In this document: piece by piece, positions 3,471-18,945 of the stretch
Numbering within the stretch: the first letter of the stretch is position 1
Layout of the letters: every line of letters begins with the position of its first letter
DNA from: an uncultured Chitinophagales bacterium
GTDB taxonomy: Bacteria; Bacteroidota; Bacteroidia; Chitinophagales; UBA2359
Assembly (NCBI GenBank): GCA_937927195.1
Contig: CALBCY010000084.1
Span: 1 to 34,970, forward strand
Direction of reading: 5' to 3'
DNA length: 34,970 bases
Translations under genes and position numbers: made by a program
The notes under the pieces: model-generated
The model's database searches: none
Seen by the model: the letters and a program-made list of their open reading frames with translations, nothing else
Told to the model about the DNA's origin: nothing

Positions 3471-4415
3471 CTAAAATGGATAGTCGTGTTCTACGGGACG
3501 AACTTCTTCGCAGAATCTACAAATGCTAGAAGCCAATCCAGTGTTTCTTCTTGTGCGTCCCGCAACTTGCTTAAAAATAGGACCACTGATTTCTTCATCG
3601 CATTGGAGGCATGCGCCAAGTGTTCCATCTTCATTGTGATATGGATCGTTATTGAAACATTCTACCAAGCAATTTTCTCTTGTGTTTTTGGTATTGTAAG
3701 CCCAAATTTGAGCACAGGGTCTGGTAAAACCCAAAGCCTCAATACAAGCCACTAAAGTATCAAAAGGTGTGTTAAAGTTTGCGAGGGCACAAGCTTTAAC
3801 TGCTGTTCCAATATCACGATCTCTCGCATATACTTCAAAGTCCGATAGGGTAGAACACAAACCGCAAGCATCATGATGGGTTAGGATTGCACCAGCAGCG
3901 TTGGCTGCAGCTTCGTCTGAATAGGTTGACAAACTATATAGTTTGTTTGCCTGATCCTCAATTTTAATGGCACAAATTACTGAGTCGCTTTCCAGCGGAG
4001 CTTCATTGTAGGGATTGCTGGTCAATTCTTCAAAAGGTAAAATTGGCGTCCATGATTTTATTGTTGTTAATTCAGATTCTGTAAATGTTCGAGATTCAAA
4101 ACTGAGACATTCACAAATAGGCTTGCAGAAAGATTCGTCAAGTCCTGTGTTTGCATTGGGCAGACCAAACATACCTTCACAAGGGATCTCTGGTTCAGGA
4201 TCTGGTTCAGGATCTGGTTCAGGGTCTGGTTCAGGGTCTGGTTCAGGATCTGGCTGTGGGTTTTCCATTTCCATTTCCATTTCCATTTCGAGTGTGTCGG
4301 GAATTTCATCCTCATTGCAAGCCACAATAAAAATTAGAGAAGTTAGCACTAGACAGCTTAGGGGAATCAACCAGTAGAATCTGGATTGTTTTTGTTGTTT
4401 TGAAATTTTTAACAT
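3471..4415 (-). CDS. Cys-rich surface lipoprotein with EM and PDPE tandem repeats
   Basis: 314 residues. Seen: an N-terminal hydrophobic segment ends in a lipobox with Cys33 (FIVAC), followed by NEDE. Acidic residues just after the Cys resemble the Bacteroidota lipoprotein export signal, so surface display is likely (inference). Next come four EM dipeptides, then five PDPE units forming a rigid acidic stalk, then a globular part with 16 further cysteines, an even number suggesting disulfides. The segment HHDACGLCSTLSDFEVYARD (about residues 180-200) resembles an uncharacterised Cys-rich motif I recall from other marine organisms; this is memory, not a search. Function unknown. The DNA repeats are 6 and 12 bp long, so copy-number changes would alter stalk length without breaking the frame. 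Confidence 0.75.
   Translation of the reverse strand: MLKISKQQKQSRFYWLIPLSCLVLTSLIFIVACNEDEIPDTLEMEMEMEMENPQPDPEPDPEPDPEPDPEPDPEPEIPCEGMFGLPNANTGLDESFCKPICECLSFESRTFTESELTTIKSWTPILPFEELTSNPYNEAPLESDSVICAIKIEDQANKLYSLSTYSDEAAANAAGAILTHHDACGLCSTLSDFEVYARDRDIGTAVKACALANFNTPFDTLVACIEALGFTRPCAQIWAYNTKNTRENCLVECFNNDPYHNEDGTLGACLQCDEEISGPIFKQVAGRTRRNTGLASSICRFCEEVRPVEHDYPF
4189..4286. repeat. coding microsatellites: five 12-bp units and four 6-bp units
   Basis: On the plus strand TCTGGTTCAGGA/G occurs five times in tandem at 4189-4248, followed by a degenerate sixth unit, and TTCCAT occurs four times at 4263-4286. They encode the PDPE and EM repeats of the lipoprotein. Both units are multiples of three, so slippage changes length and not reading frame. 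Confidence 0.9.
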
Positions 4416-11882: not shown

Positions 11883-13361
11883 ATGAAATTAACAGAACAA
11901 CTTTATCTTATGATACATTCTTTGAACAAAGCTGAGAAGCGGAGTTTTAAGATTTATTCTCAGAAGTATGGCAAGTCAAAAACCAAGTTGATATTGCTTT
12001 TTGATTTAATAAATGCTGTCGAAGAGTATGATGAAAAGTATTTGAATAAACAATTTAAGAAGAAGTTAAAGTCTGGGTCCTTGAGCTATGAGAAATACAA
12101 ATTGAAAGAATTGTTATCCAATTCTCTTTGCGATTTGCATTTCAATTCTGTGGATTCCCAAAGTATCGGAAATGTTATTTGTAAAATAGAATTAGCCTTG
12201 AAATTGAAATCTCCAGCCTTGATGGAAGAATGGCTGGAACGTGGATATAAAATGTGTGAGCAAGAATTAGAGAATGTGTTTGTTCCAATTTTGAAACGCT
12301 TTGAGTTAAAGTTAATGATGTTGAAAAAGGCTGATCTAGCAGAAGCTGTTGAATGTTCAGAATCAGCCATTCGCGCCAGTAAAGCGCTGATTAAAGATTT
12401 GCAGTTTCAAAAAATGAGGAATCAGTTTGGTAGTTTCATGTTGAAAAATTTCTATAGTGAAGATAAGGCCAAAGTGGAAATTGAACGCTTAAAATTAGTC
12501 AATAGTAAGAATTTTAATGCGGATGAAAACGAATTGAATTTCACGCAAAAAACCGACTTGCTATATTGTAGACAAATCAATTTTTCTTATTTGAGAGATA
12601 GTGAAAACTTGAATTTAGTAAACAGAACCATCATAGAACATCTTGAAAGCGAGCCGAACTACATCAAAAGAAAATTTGATACTTATACGACTTTTTATGG
12701 CAGCATGATTGTAGGCTTGATAAAAGCAAAAAAAATTGATTTAGCAGAAAAATATCTTGAGCGATTCTCCCAATTGTGTTTGCAAAATGACGTAACAGAT
12801 TTCAACTTAGTAAACGCTGTTAAAGAAAGCCATTTGTTTTTAAGCTGTGTGGTCAGTACCTACAAATATGAATATTTGGCTGTTTGCAAAAAGAAAGCAG
12901 AGATAAAAAAATTGCTTACTAAAAATGCTCAATTAGAAGAAACCTTTGATCAACCTGATGTTTTATTGTTTCTCCTTATTGAATCTGAATTTGCCTTAAA
13001 GAAATATGAAGACTGCCTTGATTCAATAAGCTTTTACTATTCTGTTTTCGATAAAAAAAGTCATTTATTGGTTTCGCACATTGAGAATAATTTCAGGTTA
13101 AAAGCTTTTGAATTTGCCTGCCAATTTGATTTGGGGAACCTCAATACCGCGAACAGCCTTTTGAAATCTATTGGTTATTTTCTTTCGATTAAGGAGGTGC
13201 AAAGCGATCAGTTGACTTTGATAAAAAACTTGTTGATATCTATAAACAAAGGTAAAATAGAAAAGACTAGTTTAGCAGAAATGAAAGCTGACTATGTCAA
13301 AAAAATGCCCGAACCTTTATTGGTGCTGCTCCGATGGATTGAGGAGAAGATGGAGGGTTGA
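11883..13361 (+). CDS. hypothetical helical (TPR-like) protein, paralogue of the 26938 gene
   Basis: 492 residues, no signal peptide or membrane segment. It appears almost entirely alpha-helical, with a repetitive Leu/Ala/Glu/Lys pattern suggestive of a TPR-like solenoid. The N-terminus (MIHSLNKAEKRSFKIYSQKY ... LLFDLINAVEEYDEKY) matches the N-terminus of the 477-aa protein at 26938 in spacing and residues: a 'sLnkaEK..F..f' helix, then a 'k.l.Lfd.i' helix, then a short segment leading to 'Y.k.klkeLLsnsL'. I infer they are paralogues. No catalytic residues are visible and the function is unknown. It stands alone on the plus strand and is followed by the non-coding repeat array. Confidence 0.8.
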   Translation: MKLTEQLYLMIHSLNKAEKRSFKIYSQKYGKSKTKLILLFDLINAVEEYDEKYLNKQFKKKLKSGSLSYEKYKLKELLSNSLCDLHFNSVDSQSIGNVICKIELALKLKSPALMEEWLERGYKMCEQELENVFVPILKRFELKLMMLKKADLAEAVECSESAIRASKALIKDLQFQKMRNQFGSFMLKNFYSEDKAKVEIERLKLVNSKNFNADENELNFTQKTDLLYCRQINFSYLRDSENLNLVNRTIIEHLESEPNYIKRKFDTYTTFYGSMIVGLIKAKKIDLAEKYLERFSQLCLQNDVTDFNLVNAVKESHLFLSCVVSTYKYEYLAVCKKKAEIKKLLTKNAQLEETFDQPDVLLFLLIESEFALKKYEDCLDSISFYYSVFDKKSHLLVSHIENNFRLKAFEFACQFDLGNLNTANSLLKSIGYFLSIKEVQSDQLTLIKNLLISINKGKIEKTSLAEMKADYVKKMPEPLLVLLRWIEEKMEG

Positions 13362-13414
13362 TTGTTGAAAAATACGAAACATATACACAAATATACACAC
13401 ACAATTCACCACAT

Positions 13415-14433
13415 CCGTCATTCCGGAATTTTATGAAGCGAAGCGGAAGAAGTTTACGAGCACTAAGCACACACCACACCCGTCATTCCGGAATTTTATG
13501 AAGCGAAGCGAAAGAAAATATCCGGAATCCCACGAACTGGCTGTTCCCTACAAACCACAACGGCTATATTTTGGTGTTATCACCAAAATCACGTGGACTG
13601 TCAAAACTGAAGCCTAATTCCCAATCGTTTCATCCCAACTATGCTTAGAAATCTGCCCTCAGGATCCGTCTTTTCTTCGTGCATGTTGTGTAGTTAAAAA
13701 CTACCTGTCAAGTTTTCACGCAGCGATCACAAGTCAATGAAATATGAAAGAGAAGTTTAATAACTTCTCTTAGGGGTTTATGTTCACACGCCACATGCCA
13801 CACGCCACACCACACCCGTCATTCCGGAATTTTATGAAGCGAAGCGGAAGAAAATATCCGGAATCCCACGAACTGGCTGTTTCCTACAAACCACAGTTGC
13901 TATATTTTGGTGTTATCACCAAAATCACGTGGACTGTCAAAACAATTTCTAATCGTTACTCCCGACTACGATTCCATATCTGCGTTGTGGAATCCATCTT
14001 TTACTCAGTGCATGCTAGGTAGTTAAAAACTACCTGTCAAATTTTCACGCAGCGATCACAAGTCAATGAAATATGAAAGAGAAGTTCTGAAACTTCACTT
14101 AGATGGTTTATGTTCATACGCCACACGCCACACGCCATCCGTCATTCCGGAATTTTATGAAGCGAAGCGGAAAAAAATATCCGGAATCCCACGAACTGGC
14201 TGTTTCCTACAAACAACAATGGCTATATTTTGGTGTTATCACCAAAATCACGTGGACTGTCAAAACTGAAACCTGATTCCCAATCGTTACTCCTGCCTAC
14301 GATTCCCTATCTGGGTTGTGTAATCCGTCTTTTTCTAATGCATGTTGGGTAGTTAAAAACTACCTGTCAAATTTTCACGCAGCGATCAAAAATCAACGAT
14401 ATATGAAAGAGATTTCGGAAACTTCACTTAGGC
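13415..14433. repeat. tandem array of three ~295-340-bp structured repeats plus a 65-bp fragment
   Basis: The unit begins CCGTCATTCCGGAATTTTAT. Copies start at 13480, 13816 and 14139, and a truncated head copy is at 13415. Two blocks are nearly identical in all full copies. Block 1 is about 140 bp and ends GTGGACTGTCAAAA. Block 2 is about 80 bp and runs from TAGTTAAAAACTACCTGTCAA to GCAGCGATCA and a following ATATGAAAGAGA. The 60-70 bp between the blocks diverge. Hairpin 1 is a 9-bp stem with a TTAT loop at 13568-13589, 13904-13925 and 14227-14248. Hairpin 2 (GTAGTT/AACTAC, AAA loop, up to 8 bp) is at 13690-13704, 14017-14035 and 14348-14364. Open frames differ between copies, so it is not coding. 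CACACGCCACAC-type low-complexity sequence separates the copies. Confidence 0.85.
13749..13770. other. 9-bp hairpin at the 3' side of the first full repeat copy
   Basis: AGAGAAGTT pairs with AACTTCTCT around TAAT. The equivalent positions in the second copy keep a 6-bp GAAGTT/AACTTC stem with a different loop. In the third copy it is largely lost. Confidence 0.6.
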
Positions 14434-14482
14434 GGAGGTTGAAGAAGACTACGACCAGTTTGGGGGGGGAAATAATGACCAA

Positions 14483-14776
14483 TTACAACTCTTCTAATTG
14501 ATATTCAAACTCCTTATTTATATATAACTCTATACTTTTTAAAATGTCTTTTTCGAAAGTTGTATTTGAATTGAAATATAGATAAACTCTGTTTTTATCT
14601 TCGATGATAAAACTAAACTTATCACCCCATTTTGGATCGTCTAAACTTATCCATATTGATTTTTCATCACACTCAAAGTTTTCTGGATGCGTTTTTCCAA
14701 GAAATTCTCTTAATTGAATGATATCTAAACAAGTGAAATCTTTTTCTGTTGTTTTTAAATTGTACTCTACTCCCAT
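14483..14776 (-). CDS. probable immunity protein for the Rhs toxin
   Basis: 97 residues, acidic, no signal peptide, so cytoplasmic. It starts 14 nt after the stop of the Rhs toxin gene on the same strand, the usual place for the cognate immunity gene in polymorphic toxin loci. The sequence (MGVEYNLKTTEKDFTCLDII ... KSIELYINKEFEYQLEEL) suggests an alpha/beta fold with a beta-rich centre (WISLDDP, FSFIIEDKNRVYLYF). I could not assign it to a named immunity family. The call rests on position, size and charge. A run of eight G residues (14462-14469) lies just beyond the stop. The reading frame is intact. Confidence 0.7.
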   Translation of the reverse strand: MGVEYNLKTTEKDFTCLDIIQLREFLGKTHPENFECDEKSIWISLDDPKWGDKFSFIIEDKNRVYLYFNSNTTFEKDILKSIELYINKEFEYQLEEL

Positions 14777-14790
14777 TTATTAAATTTGTT

Positions 14791-17700
14791 TTAGGCTCCG
14801 TAGCCATGAGGTCTGTTTCTCACAGCGGGTAAATCCTGAGGATTTCGTATGCCAATGTGAGTTTCATCTGGATTAGAGCTAACTTCTCCTTTATCGTTTA
14901 ATTGATCACCTGCAGGATTTTGTTTGTGCACATGTGCATTAAGGCCTGATTTTGGTGTCAAATTTCCATTTCGCATAGTAGTCCGTTCATTTCCATAAGG
15001 ATGAATCCTTACTTGTGAACCATCTGCATGATCCCATGTTTCGTTTCTTGCAGAACTATTGCTGACTTTTGTTTGAGTATAACCACTTTGCTGTAGTGTT
15101 TTTCTTACTTGTGTTTCGGACATTCCTCTTAAGGGAGGAAGATGACCTGAAGCACTGTTGCAAGCAGCTAAGCCCAAAACATCTACACTGGTATTAATAT
15201 CAGAACTATAAGCATACAAACTGGGATTTCCACCCAACAAACCTATCGGATCTTCACTGATATACCCACCACTTTCCGGATCGTAATACCTAAACCGATT
15301 GTAATACAATCCAGTTTCAACATCCTCGTATTGTCCTGGATATCGGAATGGACAATCGCCCAATTCGCCTTCCAAGTTAATTGCTTCTCCGTAAATATTC
15401 AAATTACAGGACCAAACCTTTTTGCCGGAAGCGTCGAACATGGCGGTTGGTGCTCCAATATGATCACTGATGATACTGAAAGCCTCTTCTCCTACAATTT
15501 TTGCAGATGGACTGAAATTCCCTGGCTCAAAAACCCAAGTGATTAAGTCGCTATTTTGTACCAGCTCTTTTGGCGGAGCATTGGCAGCTTGAATCTGAAT
15601 TTTTTGATCCCGTTTCTTGATTTTGAATATTCCATTTTCACTGCCTTTGTTCGAAATTTTCATCCCACCACTTTGTAGCCTAACTTTACCTTTACTGGAC
15701 TCAACCCATTCATGAAGTGGAACATTCCCATCCCAAATCCATTTGGTTGTTTTGTCTTTGTAAGTCTTTGAAATCCTTCGACCCAAAGCGTCATATTCGA
15801 ATCTGACGATGCGACCATCGGGTTTAGAAACACTTGTCAACATTCCACTGGCATTCCATTCATAGCTTGTGCTTCCTGCTCCCTGTTTGCTTGTTTTCTG
15901 AATCAGATTGCCCAAAACATCATAGGTATAATTGAATTTTGTGCATTCCAATAATTGGCCTGCAGGACTGTATCGTCGATCTTTTCTGCTTTGGCTGGTA
16001 AATAAATTTCCTACTGCATCTGGTATTTTATACAAAACCTGATCTGGATATTCGGCCCAGGAAAGATTGCCAAAAATATCATGACCAAAAGTAACTTTGC
16101 CTGTTTTTAGGTCATTGATTTCTTTAAGCAGGTTGTTGAAATCCCATTTGTAGGTTCTTGAAATAAATTCTTGAGTTCCTGAAAAAACATTGTGCTCCAA
16201 GGGGCGACCCAACTTGTCTCGTTTCCAGCGACTCTGAATGCCTCCTGGCAGATCACGCTGAATTTCAAGACCCATTAAATCTCTTTGAATGCTGCTTGTC
16301 CATTTTGCTTCGCCGCTTTCTGATTGAGCATTTATACCTGTTAGTTCACCAGACTGGTTTCTTTCAAATGAAATGTTAGCACCCTTAGAAGAACGAAGAG
16401 CGATGGATAAACCTGAAATGTCAAATTCCTTTTCTACAAAATGTTCCCCCTGATTTTCCTTAATAATGTTACCAATAGCATCCCTCTCAAAACGGACTAT
16501 TGTAGAAGCATTTTTCGCCTCTTCCAATCGACCCGCCAAATCAAACTTAAACTGTTCCTTGCTTGCATCCCAATGTTCAATTCCTACAATGCGATCCATT
16601 GAATCATAAACAAAAGAACTGTTCTTGCCCATCGGCCTTTGTATGCTTTTGATCCGCCCGTTAAGGTCACGAATGTATCGGATGTTCTTTTCGTCGAAAC
16701 CTGTTTCTAAAACAGGCTCTCCTCTTTGATCAAGTGCGAATCGGAATGCATATCCTTTCTCGTTTTTGATTCCTATCAATTGATCTTCTTTGTCATAATC
16801 AAATTCAACGCGAGTCCCAGATTCTATTCTGGCGGTCATTCGGTTAAAGCCTCCATATTCAAATTTGACCTCTTTTTGTTTATCCATCAATCGGATTAGG
16901 TTTCCCTCTGCGTCATAATTTAATTGTCTGATATTGCCATCGCTTTCATATATTCTTTTGCTTCGACCGATTAAATCTATTGTTCTTTTTAAAGTTCCTT
17001 TATTGGGATTGGTAACTGAAATGTTTCTACCCAAGCGGTCATATTCCAATTTTGTGGAGCCCTCATTTGGATTGATTATTTCGGTGATATTGTGAAATTT
17101 GTCGTAATTGATTATCGTCTGGTTTCCCATTCCGTCCATCAGCTCAATCAATCGCCCATCCTCATGATTGAAGATCATTGGATTGTCCAATGGATCACTT
17201 TTTGCAACCAGTATTCCATTTTCATTATAGGCCCACTTCCACTCGCCACCTAATTGGTCTTTTAGCCAAATGAGCTGGCTTCGTTCGTCGTATTCCATTT
17301 CAATAACGCTGCCATCAGGAAAGGTGGTTGCATTGCGATTGCCCCTTTCATCATAACTGTGATAAGTATTTCTTCCCAGCTCATCAATTTCTTCAATGAG
17401 TTGCTGATCATCATCAAATATCTTAATACTTTCGGCTCCGTTTGCGTCGATGGTTTTTGTAACCAATCCGCTTTTATTGTAGTGGTGTTCTGCTTTGTGT
17501 CCTAGTGCATTTGTGACAGTAGTGATTCTGTCTTTTTTATTGTAAATCAATTGGTTGTCGTAAATGCCGCCGTCTCCCCATGTTCGAGTACAATAAGCGT
17601 GTTCATCATCTCTGTCCCATTTGAAATAGAAGCTTAAACCGTTTCTGTTCGTTTCTTGCTCTAACAAATGCCCTCTGTATTTGAAGTGAAATGCCTTGCC

Positions 17701-18945
17701 GAGCGGATCTGTAACCCTTGCTAAATTTCCTTTTAAATCATAATGAAATGAGACGATGGTGAACTGTTCATTTTCTTTTTCAGGGTGAGGCGCTTCAATT
17801 TTTTGTATTCTGCCTTTTAAGTCGGTAACTATTTTGAAATTTCTACCTGTACTGTCGATTATTTTTTGAAGATGAAGTTTGTTATTGTACTCAAAATTAA
17901 TTTCAAAATTATTTGCATTCTTAATCTTTTCTAAAGGACGGAATTGATTTTTTTGTAGGCCTTTAAAATAGTAGGCATATTGATTTTGGTCTTTAATAAA
18001 ATACCCATCTTCAGTTTTGTAAAGCCTTATTTTGTCAAGACTGCTAACTGCTTCTTCACCGACTTCTAAGAAGGGAAATCGTATGGTTCTGCCATCATTC
18101 AATCTCACGACGACTGATTCGTCATTGGTGTCAACATTCAATCCCCAATCGTAAGAATGATGCCATCCGTGGCCAACAGGGCCATCGTAAACCGAAGTTG
18201 AATACCAGATTCTTTCAAATTTTAAAGGAATTGGTCCGTTGATTTCAAAGTCGGTAAAATCGGTGTAAACTTTTCCTGTTGCAACATCGACAGGATGACC
18301 TGCGGTAGTGCAAGCAGAAGTTGGTGCTTCATTTCTGGAAGAGCCTTCCTCATTTTTTACTTTTTTTATTTTTGCTTTTTTGTTTCTAAAAAGCCGGCCC
18401 ATTTTTTTCTTTCCCTTGGCTTTCCCGCCTCCGCCTCCCTTAGGAACTGGTGGTGCCATCATGGTAATTGTTGGTGGTCCACCGACCAAAACTGGTGGTC
18501 CTGCGGGAATGGACATAACACTTGATGTTGGTGAATACAAACCCATAAGTGGCATTGGTTTGCTTTTTCTAGGAGGAGGAGGGATGCCAACTGTTTGACA
18601 GGTTAGAACCTGTCCACCCATAGAGCCCAATACGTCGCCATCCGCAAGTACGGTGGCGCTTCCCATGAATAATTCGCCGTCGTTGGTTGGAGGAGGGGGA
18701 ACAAAACCAGCGCCCATTGGAATGTGTGGTGGTACAGCTTTGGCATTGAATCCAGCAATACCAGCTGGCATATTGTTGATTCTTACTTTAGCTCCTGTTG
18801 GGGACATCTTGCCCGGATCCATTAACATGCCCACAAATGGATGTGGGAGTGGGGTAGGAATAGGTGGTGCCGGTGGCGCAGGTATAAAAACCATATGCAC
18901 ATCAACACCCATCACCGGATCCATCATTTTGACTGCGGGGATCAT
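14791..18945 (-). CDS. PAAR-like / Rhs polymorphic toxin
   Basis: 1384 residues. Residues 1-168 are a Pro/Gly-rich PAAR-like tip domain (VHMVFIPAPPAPPIPTPLPH, later GSATVLADGDVLGSMGG and VLTCQTVG). A Gly/Lys-rich basic linker covers about 169-198. From about 211 (ACTTAGHPVDVATGKV) begins a DUF6531-type entry, then many YD/Rhs repeats (for example FEYDALGRRISK). The Rhs core ends with YYNRFRYYDPESGGYISEDP, GLLGGNPSLYAYSSD and DVLGL near residue 1259. The last 125 residues are the variable toxin tip. Conserved-looking His motifs there are WDHADGSQVRIHPYG, NAHVHK and ETHIGIRNP, reminiscent of the Ntox24-type putative nuclease group (memory, low confidence). Inference: the tip is carried by a contractile injection or type VI-like apparatus, and the tail is released inside the Rhs cage. 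The start overlaps the upstream gene by ATGA, and a likely immunity gene follows. Confidence 0.9.
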   Translation of the reverse strand: MIPAVKMMDPVMGVDVHMVFIPAPPAPPIPTPLPHPFVGMLMDPGKMSPTGAKVRINNMPAGIAGFNAKAVPPHIPMGAGFVPPPPTNDGELFMGSATVLADGDVLGSMGGQVLTCQTVGIPPPPRKSKPMPLMGLYSPTSSVMSIPAGPPVLVGGPPTITMMAPPVPKGGGGGKAKGKKKMGRLFRNKKAKIKKVKNEEGSSRNEAPTSACTTAGHPVDVATGKVYTDFTDFEINGPIPLKFERIWYSTSVYDGPVGHGWHHSYDWGLNVDTNDESVVVRLNDGRTIRFPFLEVGEEAVSSLDKIRLYKTEDGYFIKDQNQYAYYFKGLQKNQFRPLEKIKNANNFEINFEYNNKLHLQKIIDSTGRNFKIVTDLKGRIQKIEAPHPEKENEQFTIVSFHYDLKGNLARVTDPLGKAFHFKYRGHLLEQETNRNGLSFYFKWDRDDEHAYCTRTWGDGGIYDNQLIYNKKDRITTVTNALGHKAEHHYNKSGLVTKTIDANGAESIKIFDDDQQLIEEIDELGRNTYHSYDERGNRNATTFPDGSVIEMEYDERSQLIWLKDQLGGEWKWAYNENGILVAKSDPLDNPMIFNHEDGRLIELMDGMGNQTIINYDKFHNITEIINPNEGSTKLEYDRLGRNISVTNPNKGTLKRTIDLIGRSKRIYESDGNIRQLNYDAEGNLIRLMDKQKEVKFEYGGFNRMTARIESGTRVEFDYDKEDQLIGIKNEKGYAFRFALDQRGEPVLETGFDEKNIRYIRDLNGRIKSIQRPMGKNSSFVYDSMDRIVGIEHWDASKEQFKFDLAGRLEEAKNASTIVRFERDAIGNIIKENQGEHFVEKEFDISGLSIALRSSKGANISFERNQSGELTGINAQSESGEAKWTSSIQRDLMGLEIQRDLPGGIQSRWKRDKLGRPLEHNVFSGTQEFISRTYKWDFNNLLKEINDLKTGKVTFGHDIFGNLSWAEYPDQVLYKIPDAVGNLFTSQSRKDRRYSPAGQLLECTKFNYTYDVLGNLIQKTSKQGAGSTSYEWNASGMLTSVSKPDGRIVRFEYDALGRRISKTYKDKTTKWIWDGNVPLHEWVESSKGKVRLQSGGMKISNKGSENGIFKIKKRDQKIQIQAANAPPKELVQNSDLITWVFEPGNFSPSAKIVGEEAFSIISDHIGAPTAMFDASGKKVWSCNLNIYGEAINLEGELGDCPFRYPGQYEDVETGLYYNRFRYYDPESGGYISEDPIGLLGGNPSLYAYSSDINTSVDVLGLAACNSASGHLPPLRGMSETQVRKTLQQSGYTQTKVSNSSARNETWDHADGSQVRIHPYGNERTTMRNGNLTPKSGLNAHVHKQNPAGDQLNDKGEVSSNPDETHIGIRNPQDLPAVRNRPHGYGA

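Follow-up and report, generated by a model that had tools for sequence, protein, structure and literature searches.

A tandem array of hairpin repeats beside an rhs gene is probably a duplicated mosaic of dispersed palindromic families

A tandem array of hairpin-bearing repeats in an uncultured Chitinophagales bacterium is very probably a BIME-like mosaic, made of REP and MITE-type debris and tandemly duplicated in a dispensable spacer between convergent genes. The CGTC-tagged REP, the GCT-tagged hairpin and the half of a palindromic element of about 270 bp that make up its unit each exist separately elsewhere in the genome. A search of the organism's own 6.3-Mb draft genome, which the earlier note on this DNA had proposed, recovered the full unit in the window only (the window being the whole 34,970-nt stretch analysed) and pieces of it at many sites; the unit is unique to the window, yet nearly every part of it is dispersed.

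The array occupies the convergent intergenic spacer at 13415–14433, which holds three direct copies of 336, 323 and 295 bp together with a relic copy. TRF run on the window gave a period of 336, 2.9 copies and 85% matches, an independent repeat search agreed, and the tandem repeat strength was far above chance; divergence between the copies is 11–14%. Three full copies starting at 13480, 13816 and 14139 and a truncated one had already been described in the earlier note; the three starts were confirmed, and the truncated copy lies at 13415–13451. The relic matches unit nt 1–37 at 97–100% over 13415–13451, its CA-rich spacer is 61% like the inter-copy spacer at 13775–13807, and it is best read as a copy whose interior was lost by deletion. 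As also described earlier, no coding frame is common to the units, and the ORFs of the array are short and lie in differing frames. A tRNA/tmRNA search returned none and, on the question of an integron, no recombinase domain was present among the 19 window proteins scanned, the units themselves being without a shared ORF. The features are as follows.

11883–13361, plus strand: left neighbour, a 492-aa gene convergent with the 97-aa ORF on the right; no Pfam domain
13415–13479, plus strand: copy 0 (relic), module A nt 1–37 (13415–13451), then diverged CA-rich spacer
13480–13815, plus strand: copy 1, tandem unit, 336 bp
13816–14138, plus strand: copy 2, tandem unit, 323 bp
14139–14433, plus strand: copy 3, tandem unit, 295 bp, without trailing CA-rich spacer
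13480–13537, plus strand: module A of copy 1, CGTC plus ATTCCGGA / TCCGGAAT plus CCC tail, extended loop
13816–13873 and 14139–14196, plus strand: module A of copies 2 and 3
13560–13597, plus strand: module B of copy 1, GCT-tagged 9-bp hairpin ATTTTGGTG-TTAT-CACCAAAAT (hairpin 1)
13896–13933 and 14219–14256, plus strand: module B of copies 2 and 3
13951–14007, plus strand: module D of copy 2, palindrome ACTACGATTCC...GGAATC (diverged stretch)
14282–14338 and 13624–13674, plus strand: module D of copy 3 and, decayed, of copy 1
13689–13773, plus strand: module C of copy 1, with hairpin 2 (13690–13704) and hairpin 3 (13748–13771)
14018–14102 and 14348–14431, plus strand: module C of copies 2 and 3
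14448–14460, plus strand: ACTACGACCAGTT, right-end motif of the C element, after the last copy only
14483–14776, minus strand: right neighbour, 97-aa ORF positioned after the rhs gene; no family match
14791–18945, minus strand: rhs gene, 1384 aa, with RHS repeats and Rhs-associated core

The first 105 residues of the left neighbour weakly match the BT2802 family model; the protein belongs to a fast-diverging family of roughly 500-aa proteins with several paralogues per genome, its best relative sharing 27% identity. On the other side, the rhs gene probably encodes a C-terminal toxin domain, and the 97-aa ORF is a probable immunity gene of the Rhs toxin. No syntenic relative of the array spacer was found in related genomes, where the 492-aa gene has remote homologues only, so no empty site is available for comparison. 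Elsewhere in the window, an ORF at 3471–4415 holds two short tandem repeats (4189–4289; 12 bp × 5.4 and 6 bp × 4.7), whose in-frame lengths make a variable-length protein stretch possible. For an ABC-transporter gene of the window, the nearest matches come from Bacteroidota, with Saprospiraceae represented among the closest.

Copies of modules A, B and C were counted with covariance models built from aligned dispersed copies and run on the 6.3-Mb draft (372 contigs); the counts are lower bounds, because contig ends hold many of the copies in this draft assembly. Module A (unit nt 1–58; CCGTCATTCCGGAATTTT...AAAATATCCGGAATCCCACG) has 47 copies, dispersed and intergenic. CGTC or a near variant stands unpaired at one end of the palindrome in 12 of 13 aligned copies, the exception being degenerate. 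The 8–9-bp stem ATTCCGGA/TCCGGAAT begins with the pairs A-T and T-A, is paired in 98.8% of its cells and has two pairs with changes on both sides, a count uncorrected for the shared descent of subtypes. CGTC-tagged REPs, whose hosts include Bacteroidetes, have been described as a tag, an 8-bp stem starting with AT, a CC-type tail and a loop of 4–5 nt (Di Nocera, De Gregorio and Rocco 2013, PMC3733652). Module A shares the tag, the AT-starting 8-bp stem, the CC-type tail and the high-copy intergenic dispersal, and canonical short-loop relatives (CGTCATTCTGGG-CTTGA-CCCAGAATCC) are found in the same genome. Its loop, however, is about 30 nt long, holds five further A-T pairs and lies outside the 4–5 nt range; since exceptional loops are noted in a few families (PMC3733652), module A is best called a long-loop variant of the CGTC-tagged REP.

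Module A also differs from that class in arrangement. CGTC repeats are reported mostly as singletons or inverted (HH) dimers, with negligible HT dimers and rare clusters (PMC3733652), whereas 29 of the 47 module A copies stand head-to-tail on the same strand in 11 clusters, at spacings of 65–336 bp. The DNA between clustered copies is repeated too, with a content that differs per cluster; ten genomic sites besides the window have such A-anchored clusters, among which the window array is the largest-unit case. The search of related genomes that the earlier note had advised gave a divided answer: of the three modules only A also occurs in other family genomes searched, two of the same genus (82–83% complete) having 29 and 7 copies and one other having 3, while B and C are absent. 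The exact module A pattern had no match in 84,980 species genomes, a set that leaves out near relatives.

Module B, with at least 149 copies by its covariance model, has the commonest palindrome of the sampled genome. An unsupervised count of perfect 8-bp stems over 603 kb ranked TTTTGGTG and TTTTGGTC, which are hairpin 1 and a variant of it, in the first two places; AAGTAGTT (hairpin 2) and the CGTC-REP stem ATTCTGGG were joint third, with GTGAAGTT (of the hairpin 3 type) close behind. GCT nearly always precedes the B hairpin on one side. Pairing holds in 92.8% of the stem cells of 42 dispersed copies, with double-sided changes at three pairs (C-G/A-T, T-A/C-G and G-C/C-G); these amount to 40 double-change cells, as against 15 in shuffles and reached by 0 of 500 shuffles, with no correction for descent shared within subtypes. 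Searches of 19 other family genomes and of 148 further genomes of the order did not recover the hairpin (present in 1 of 149, the organism's own).

The B hairpin also lies within a longer element of 116–460 bp bounded by the 14-bp TIR TTGAGTACTAGACA / TGTCTAGTACTCAA. Its interior has a pair of oppositely oriented B-type hairpins, usually spaced by about 90 bp, and a 21-bp minisatellite, GTAAGCGTCATAAGACCAAAA. At one mismatch or fewer the TIR TTGAGTACTAGACA occurs at 86 sites, as against 0 in a reversed control. In the 17 elements with both ends (L253–L269) the flanks agree at 6.18 of 9 positions, compared with 3.42 when shuffled (0 of 2000 shuffles); the agreement is at exactly 9 bp, lengths of 7 and 10 showing nothing, and target duplications of 9 bp are perfect in 5 of the 17 (L253, L256, L257, L259 and L265). 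Because it has TIRs and 9-bp target duplications, the full B element is a MITE family. The TIR-paired elements are too short for a transposase, and no TIR pairs 0.8–2.5 kb apart were evident in a draft assembly that may break at such elements. A search by the B hairpin recovered the MITE family from none of the other genomes sampled in the bacterial family and order.

Two elements, L254 and L263, carry the same TIR around unrelated interiors, that of L263 being a 233-bp near-perfect palindrome, with no clear 9-bp duplication; it therefore seems that a single unseen transposase serves several non-autonomous subfamilies. Local arrays in which the B hairpin is repeated head to tail occur at C109:7900–8101 (L270), C317:4389–4594 (L271) and C333:9439–9557, with fixed periods of about 41, 56 and 44 bp. 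Descent of the window's own B copies from the MITE is not proven: no TIRs surround them (the best match in 13300–14500 has 4 mismatches of 14), and the similarity of their flanks is not significant.

Module C is half of a dispersed element of about 270 bp built of two inverted halves; the left end of that element, CTAAGTGAAG, is sharp, and its right end, ACTACGACCAGTT, is conserved. The model gave 19 matches (half-elements) in the own genome, and C was absent from the 19 other family genomes searched. Paired changes keep the stems of dispersed C copies, less so than in B and likewise uncorrected for shared descent of subtypes. The right-end motif also ends the C elements at C273, C87, C142 and C99 and, with a change, those at C85 and C178; that the array has it only behind its last copy is as expected if an A-B-D-C composite with a C part ending there was duplicated, copies 1 and 2 being cut at CTTAG. 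Inspection by eye of the flanks around five C elements showed no TIR or target duplication. Module D has nhmmer matches elsewhere at C274 (L079:7951–7993) and, weakly, at C369 (L081), where D and C jointly match over 159 nt at 75%. At two contig ends, the same flank of about 70 bp lies to the right of one C element and to the left of another (C21, L155, and C273, L054), which suggests a tandem duplication that broke the assembly.

Taken together with the MITE, its TIRs and its 9-bp target duplications, the dispersal of A, B and C as intergenic palindromic families bears out one of the two identities offered in the earlier note, that of a structured mobile DNA element. Relative to genes, B sites lie in divergent spacers in 2 of 38 cases, against an expected value of about 17% (p 0.03), and B is nearer the 3' end of the upstream gene in 23 of 30 same-strand spacers (p 0.003); the three C sites with both neighbours known are all convergent. 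These figures are indicative, as ORFs were called mechanically and the sample was partly chosen for holding these repeats. Such a bias is expected either from a role at 3' ends or from the loss of promoter insertions.

Within the array, most details of the hairpins given in the earlier note could be reproduced. Hairpin 1, ATTTTGGTG-TTAT-CACCAAAAT, is identical at 13568–13589, 13904–13925 and 14227–14248 and is enclosed by the outer CCACG...CGTGG pairing; the GTAGTT/AACTAC core of hairpin 2 is invariant, and its outer pairs vary (8 bp in copy 2, 7 in copy 3, 6 in copy 1). Hairpin 3 has an interruption in copy 2 and its shortest form in copy 3, but the stem of copy 1 is a perfect 10 bp, not 9. 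That perfect stem is a derived state, the norm among dispersed relatives being an A.A mismatch there.

Identity between copies is uneven: 96–98% in module A with its loop, 100% in the B block, 74–83% in the B-to-C (D) stretch and 86–92% in C. The contrast between the conserved blocks and the diverged stretch, which the earlier note had pointed out, is real (Fisher p about 1e-10), but the conservation takes in loops and linkers of A and B as fully as stems, and from copy to copy hairpin 2, hairpin 3 and the D palindrome decay. The idea that structure is kept while flanks diverge accordingly holds for the dispersed families and is not borne out in the array, and the covariance test advised earlier was split along the same line: paired changes were found across dispersed copies of B, C and A, and stems were not favoured within the array. 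The near-invariance of A and B could reflect gene conversion between the copies or constraint on A and B.

That pattern bears on the other identity offered earlier, a family of structured RNAs, here perhaps under selection and regulating the Rhs toxin or immunity gene. The kept pairing of the B stems, and likewise of C and A, the near-invariance of the A and B blocks in three copies and the folding of two copies, which is more stable than that of shuffles (z −2.25 and −2.67), would all suit such an RNA, but palindromes at the DNA level, such as REPs and MITE ends, keep pairing too, and they yield moderate z-scores of this size anyway. There was no Rfam match at gathering score (0 in the window), promoter-like sites were not above expectation (1 against 2.6 in shuffled sequence), loops are conserved no less than stems, and the same modules adjoin unrelated genes. 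The array is unlikely to be a dedicated RNA, and a structured RNA kept by selection, perhaps as a regulator of the toxin locus, is very unlikely. Adjacency to the rhs gene, to which the earlier note had drawn attention, is real but looks incidental, given the same modules beside many unrelated genes. A role at transcript ends is possible, though we find it doubtful: the hairpins would be candidate bidirectional 3'-end elements, terminators or mRNA stabilisers, with copies kept to insulate the toxin operon from its neighbour. The convergent position of the array and of C, the 3'-end preference of B and the report that REPs lie mostly downstream of genes (PMC3733652) are consistent with this, as are two terminator-like sites (13771–13748 on the minus strand and 13970–13994 on the plus strand) where 0.9 are expected; that excess, however, is not significant, the U-tracts are poor, and the positional bias would also arise if promoter insertions were purged.

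Could the composite of A, B, D and C be one mobile element? The joint match of D and C at C369 and the right-end motif common to C elements point that way, but the whole unit is found here only, A and B are found at many loci that lack both C and D, no TIRs or target duplication are apparent at the unit borders, and the copies join through CA-rich spacers, all of which makes a single element highly improbable. We give hardly any credence to a simple recent duplication of junk sequence, the null set by the earlier note. The whole unit is unique and tandem, as that null has it, but its parts are high-copy repeat families, which contradict it, and 11–14% divergence is not that of a very recent event. 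The duplicated mosaic, which we prefer, has evidence against it as well, namely the uneven identity (100% in the B block against 74–83% in the D stretch), which simple neutral decay does not predict unless gene conversion occurred or A and B are under selection.

According to the mosaic reading, copies of mobile or selfish repeats would have landed next to one another in a dispensable spacer. Unequal recombination or replication slippage, acting between copies of module A and CA-rich spacers, would then have multiplied one composite, and the copies would have diverged afterwards and probably recombined with each other. We infer this insertion-then-duplication history from the sequence. Any effect on the cell would be generic, either that of hairpins at 3' ends (stabilisation of transcript ends or mutual termination between the convergent genes) or copy-number instability of the array.

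Known systems resemble the array in part. Like BIMEs, it joins palindromic units by conserved linkers, is amplified in tandem and lies in an intergenic, 3'-side location; unlike BIMEs, which consist of one REP family in alternating orientation, it draws on unrelated repeat families. In Neisseria, CGTC REPs (dRS3, CGTC-1) are likewise interleaved with other repeat families in mosaic intergenic regions (PMC3733652), but the partner families are others, and here the whole mosaic is tandemly repeated. In contrast to the GTAG REPs mobilised by RAYTs, no RAYT gene flanked by A, B or C repeats was found; a RAYT was considered as the mover and rejected, the sole Y1_Tnp gene (C74) of an assembly about 94% complete reading as IS200-like and being accompanied by hairpins of a different kind, with none of modules A, B or C close by. 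The MITE recalls BrickBuilt of Porphyromonas gingivalis (PMC4596501), also from Bacteroidota, in its short TIRs, variable minisatellite of about 20 nt, intergenic location and restriction to a lineage, yet the TIRs are unrelated (about GAGACCTTTGCA there, TTGAGTACTAGACA here), target duplications are 4 bp there and 9 bp here, and BrickBuilt has 19 copies in P. gingivalis where the B element has far more.

There is a slim chance that more is at work: the palindromes may have spread recently as a lineage-specific active repeat system of ready-made bidirectional 3'-end elements, whose A-anchored composites would multiply in tandem at selected convergent sites and tune read-through between adjacent operons. 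In the window, such tuning would concern an Rhs toxin operon and a fast-evolving gene facing it. More generally, ordinary repeat families can yield a striking tandem array that looks like structured RNA. Three palindromic families are named in a Saprospiraceae-like genome; the head-to-tail tandem growth of its CGTC REP departs from the published picture of the class, and the MITE, with more than 80 end copies, perfect TIRs, 9-bp target duplications and a built-in minisatellite, would lend itself well to the study of a recent repeat burst.
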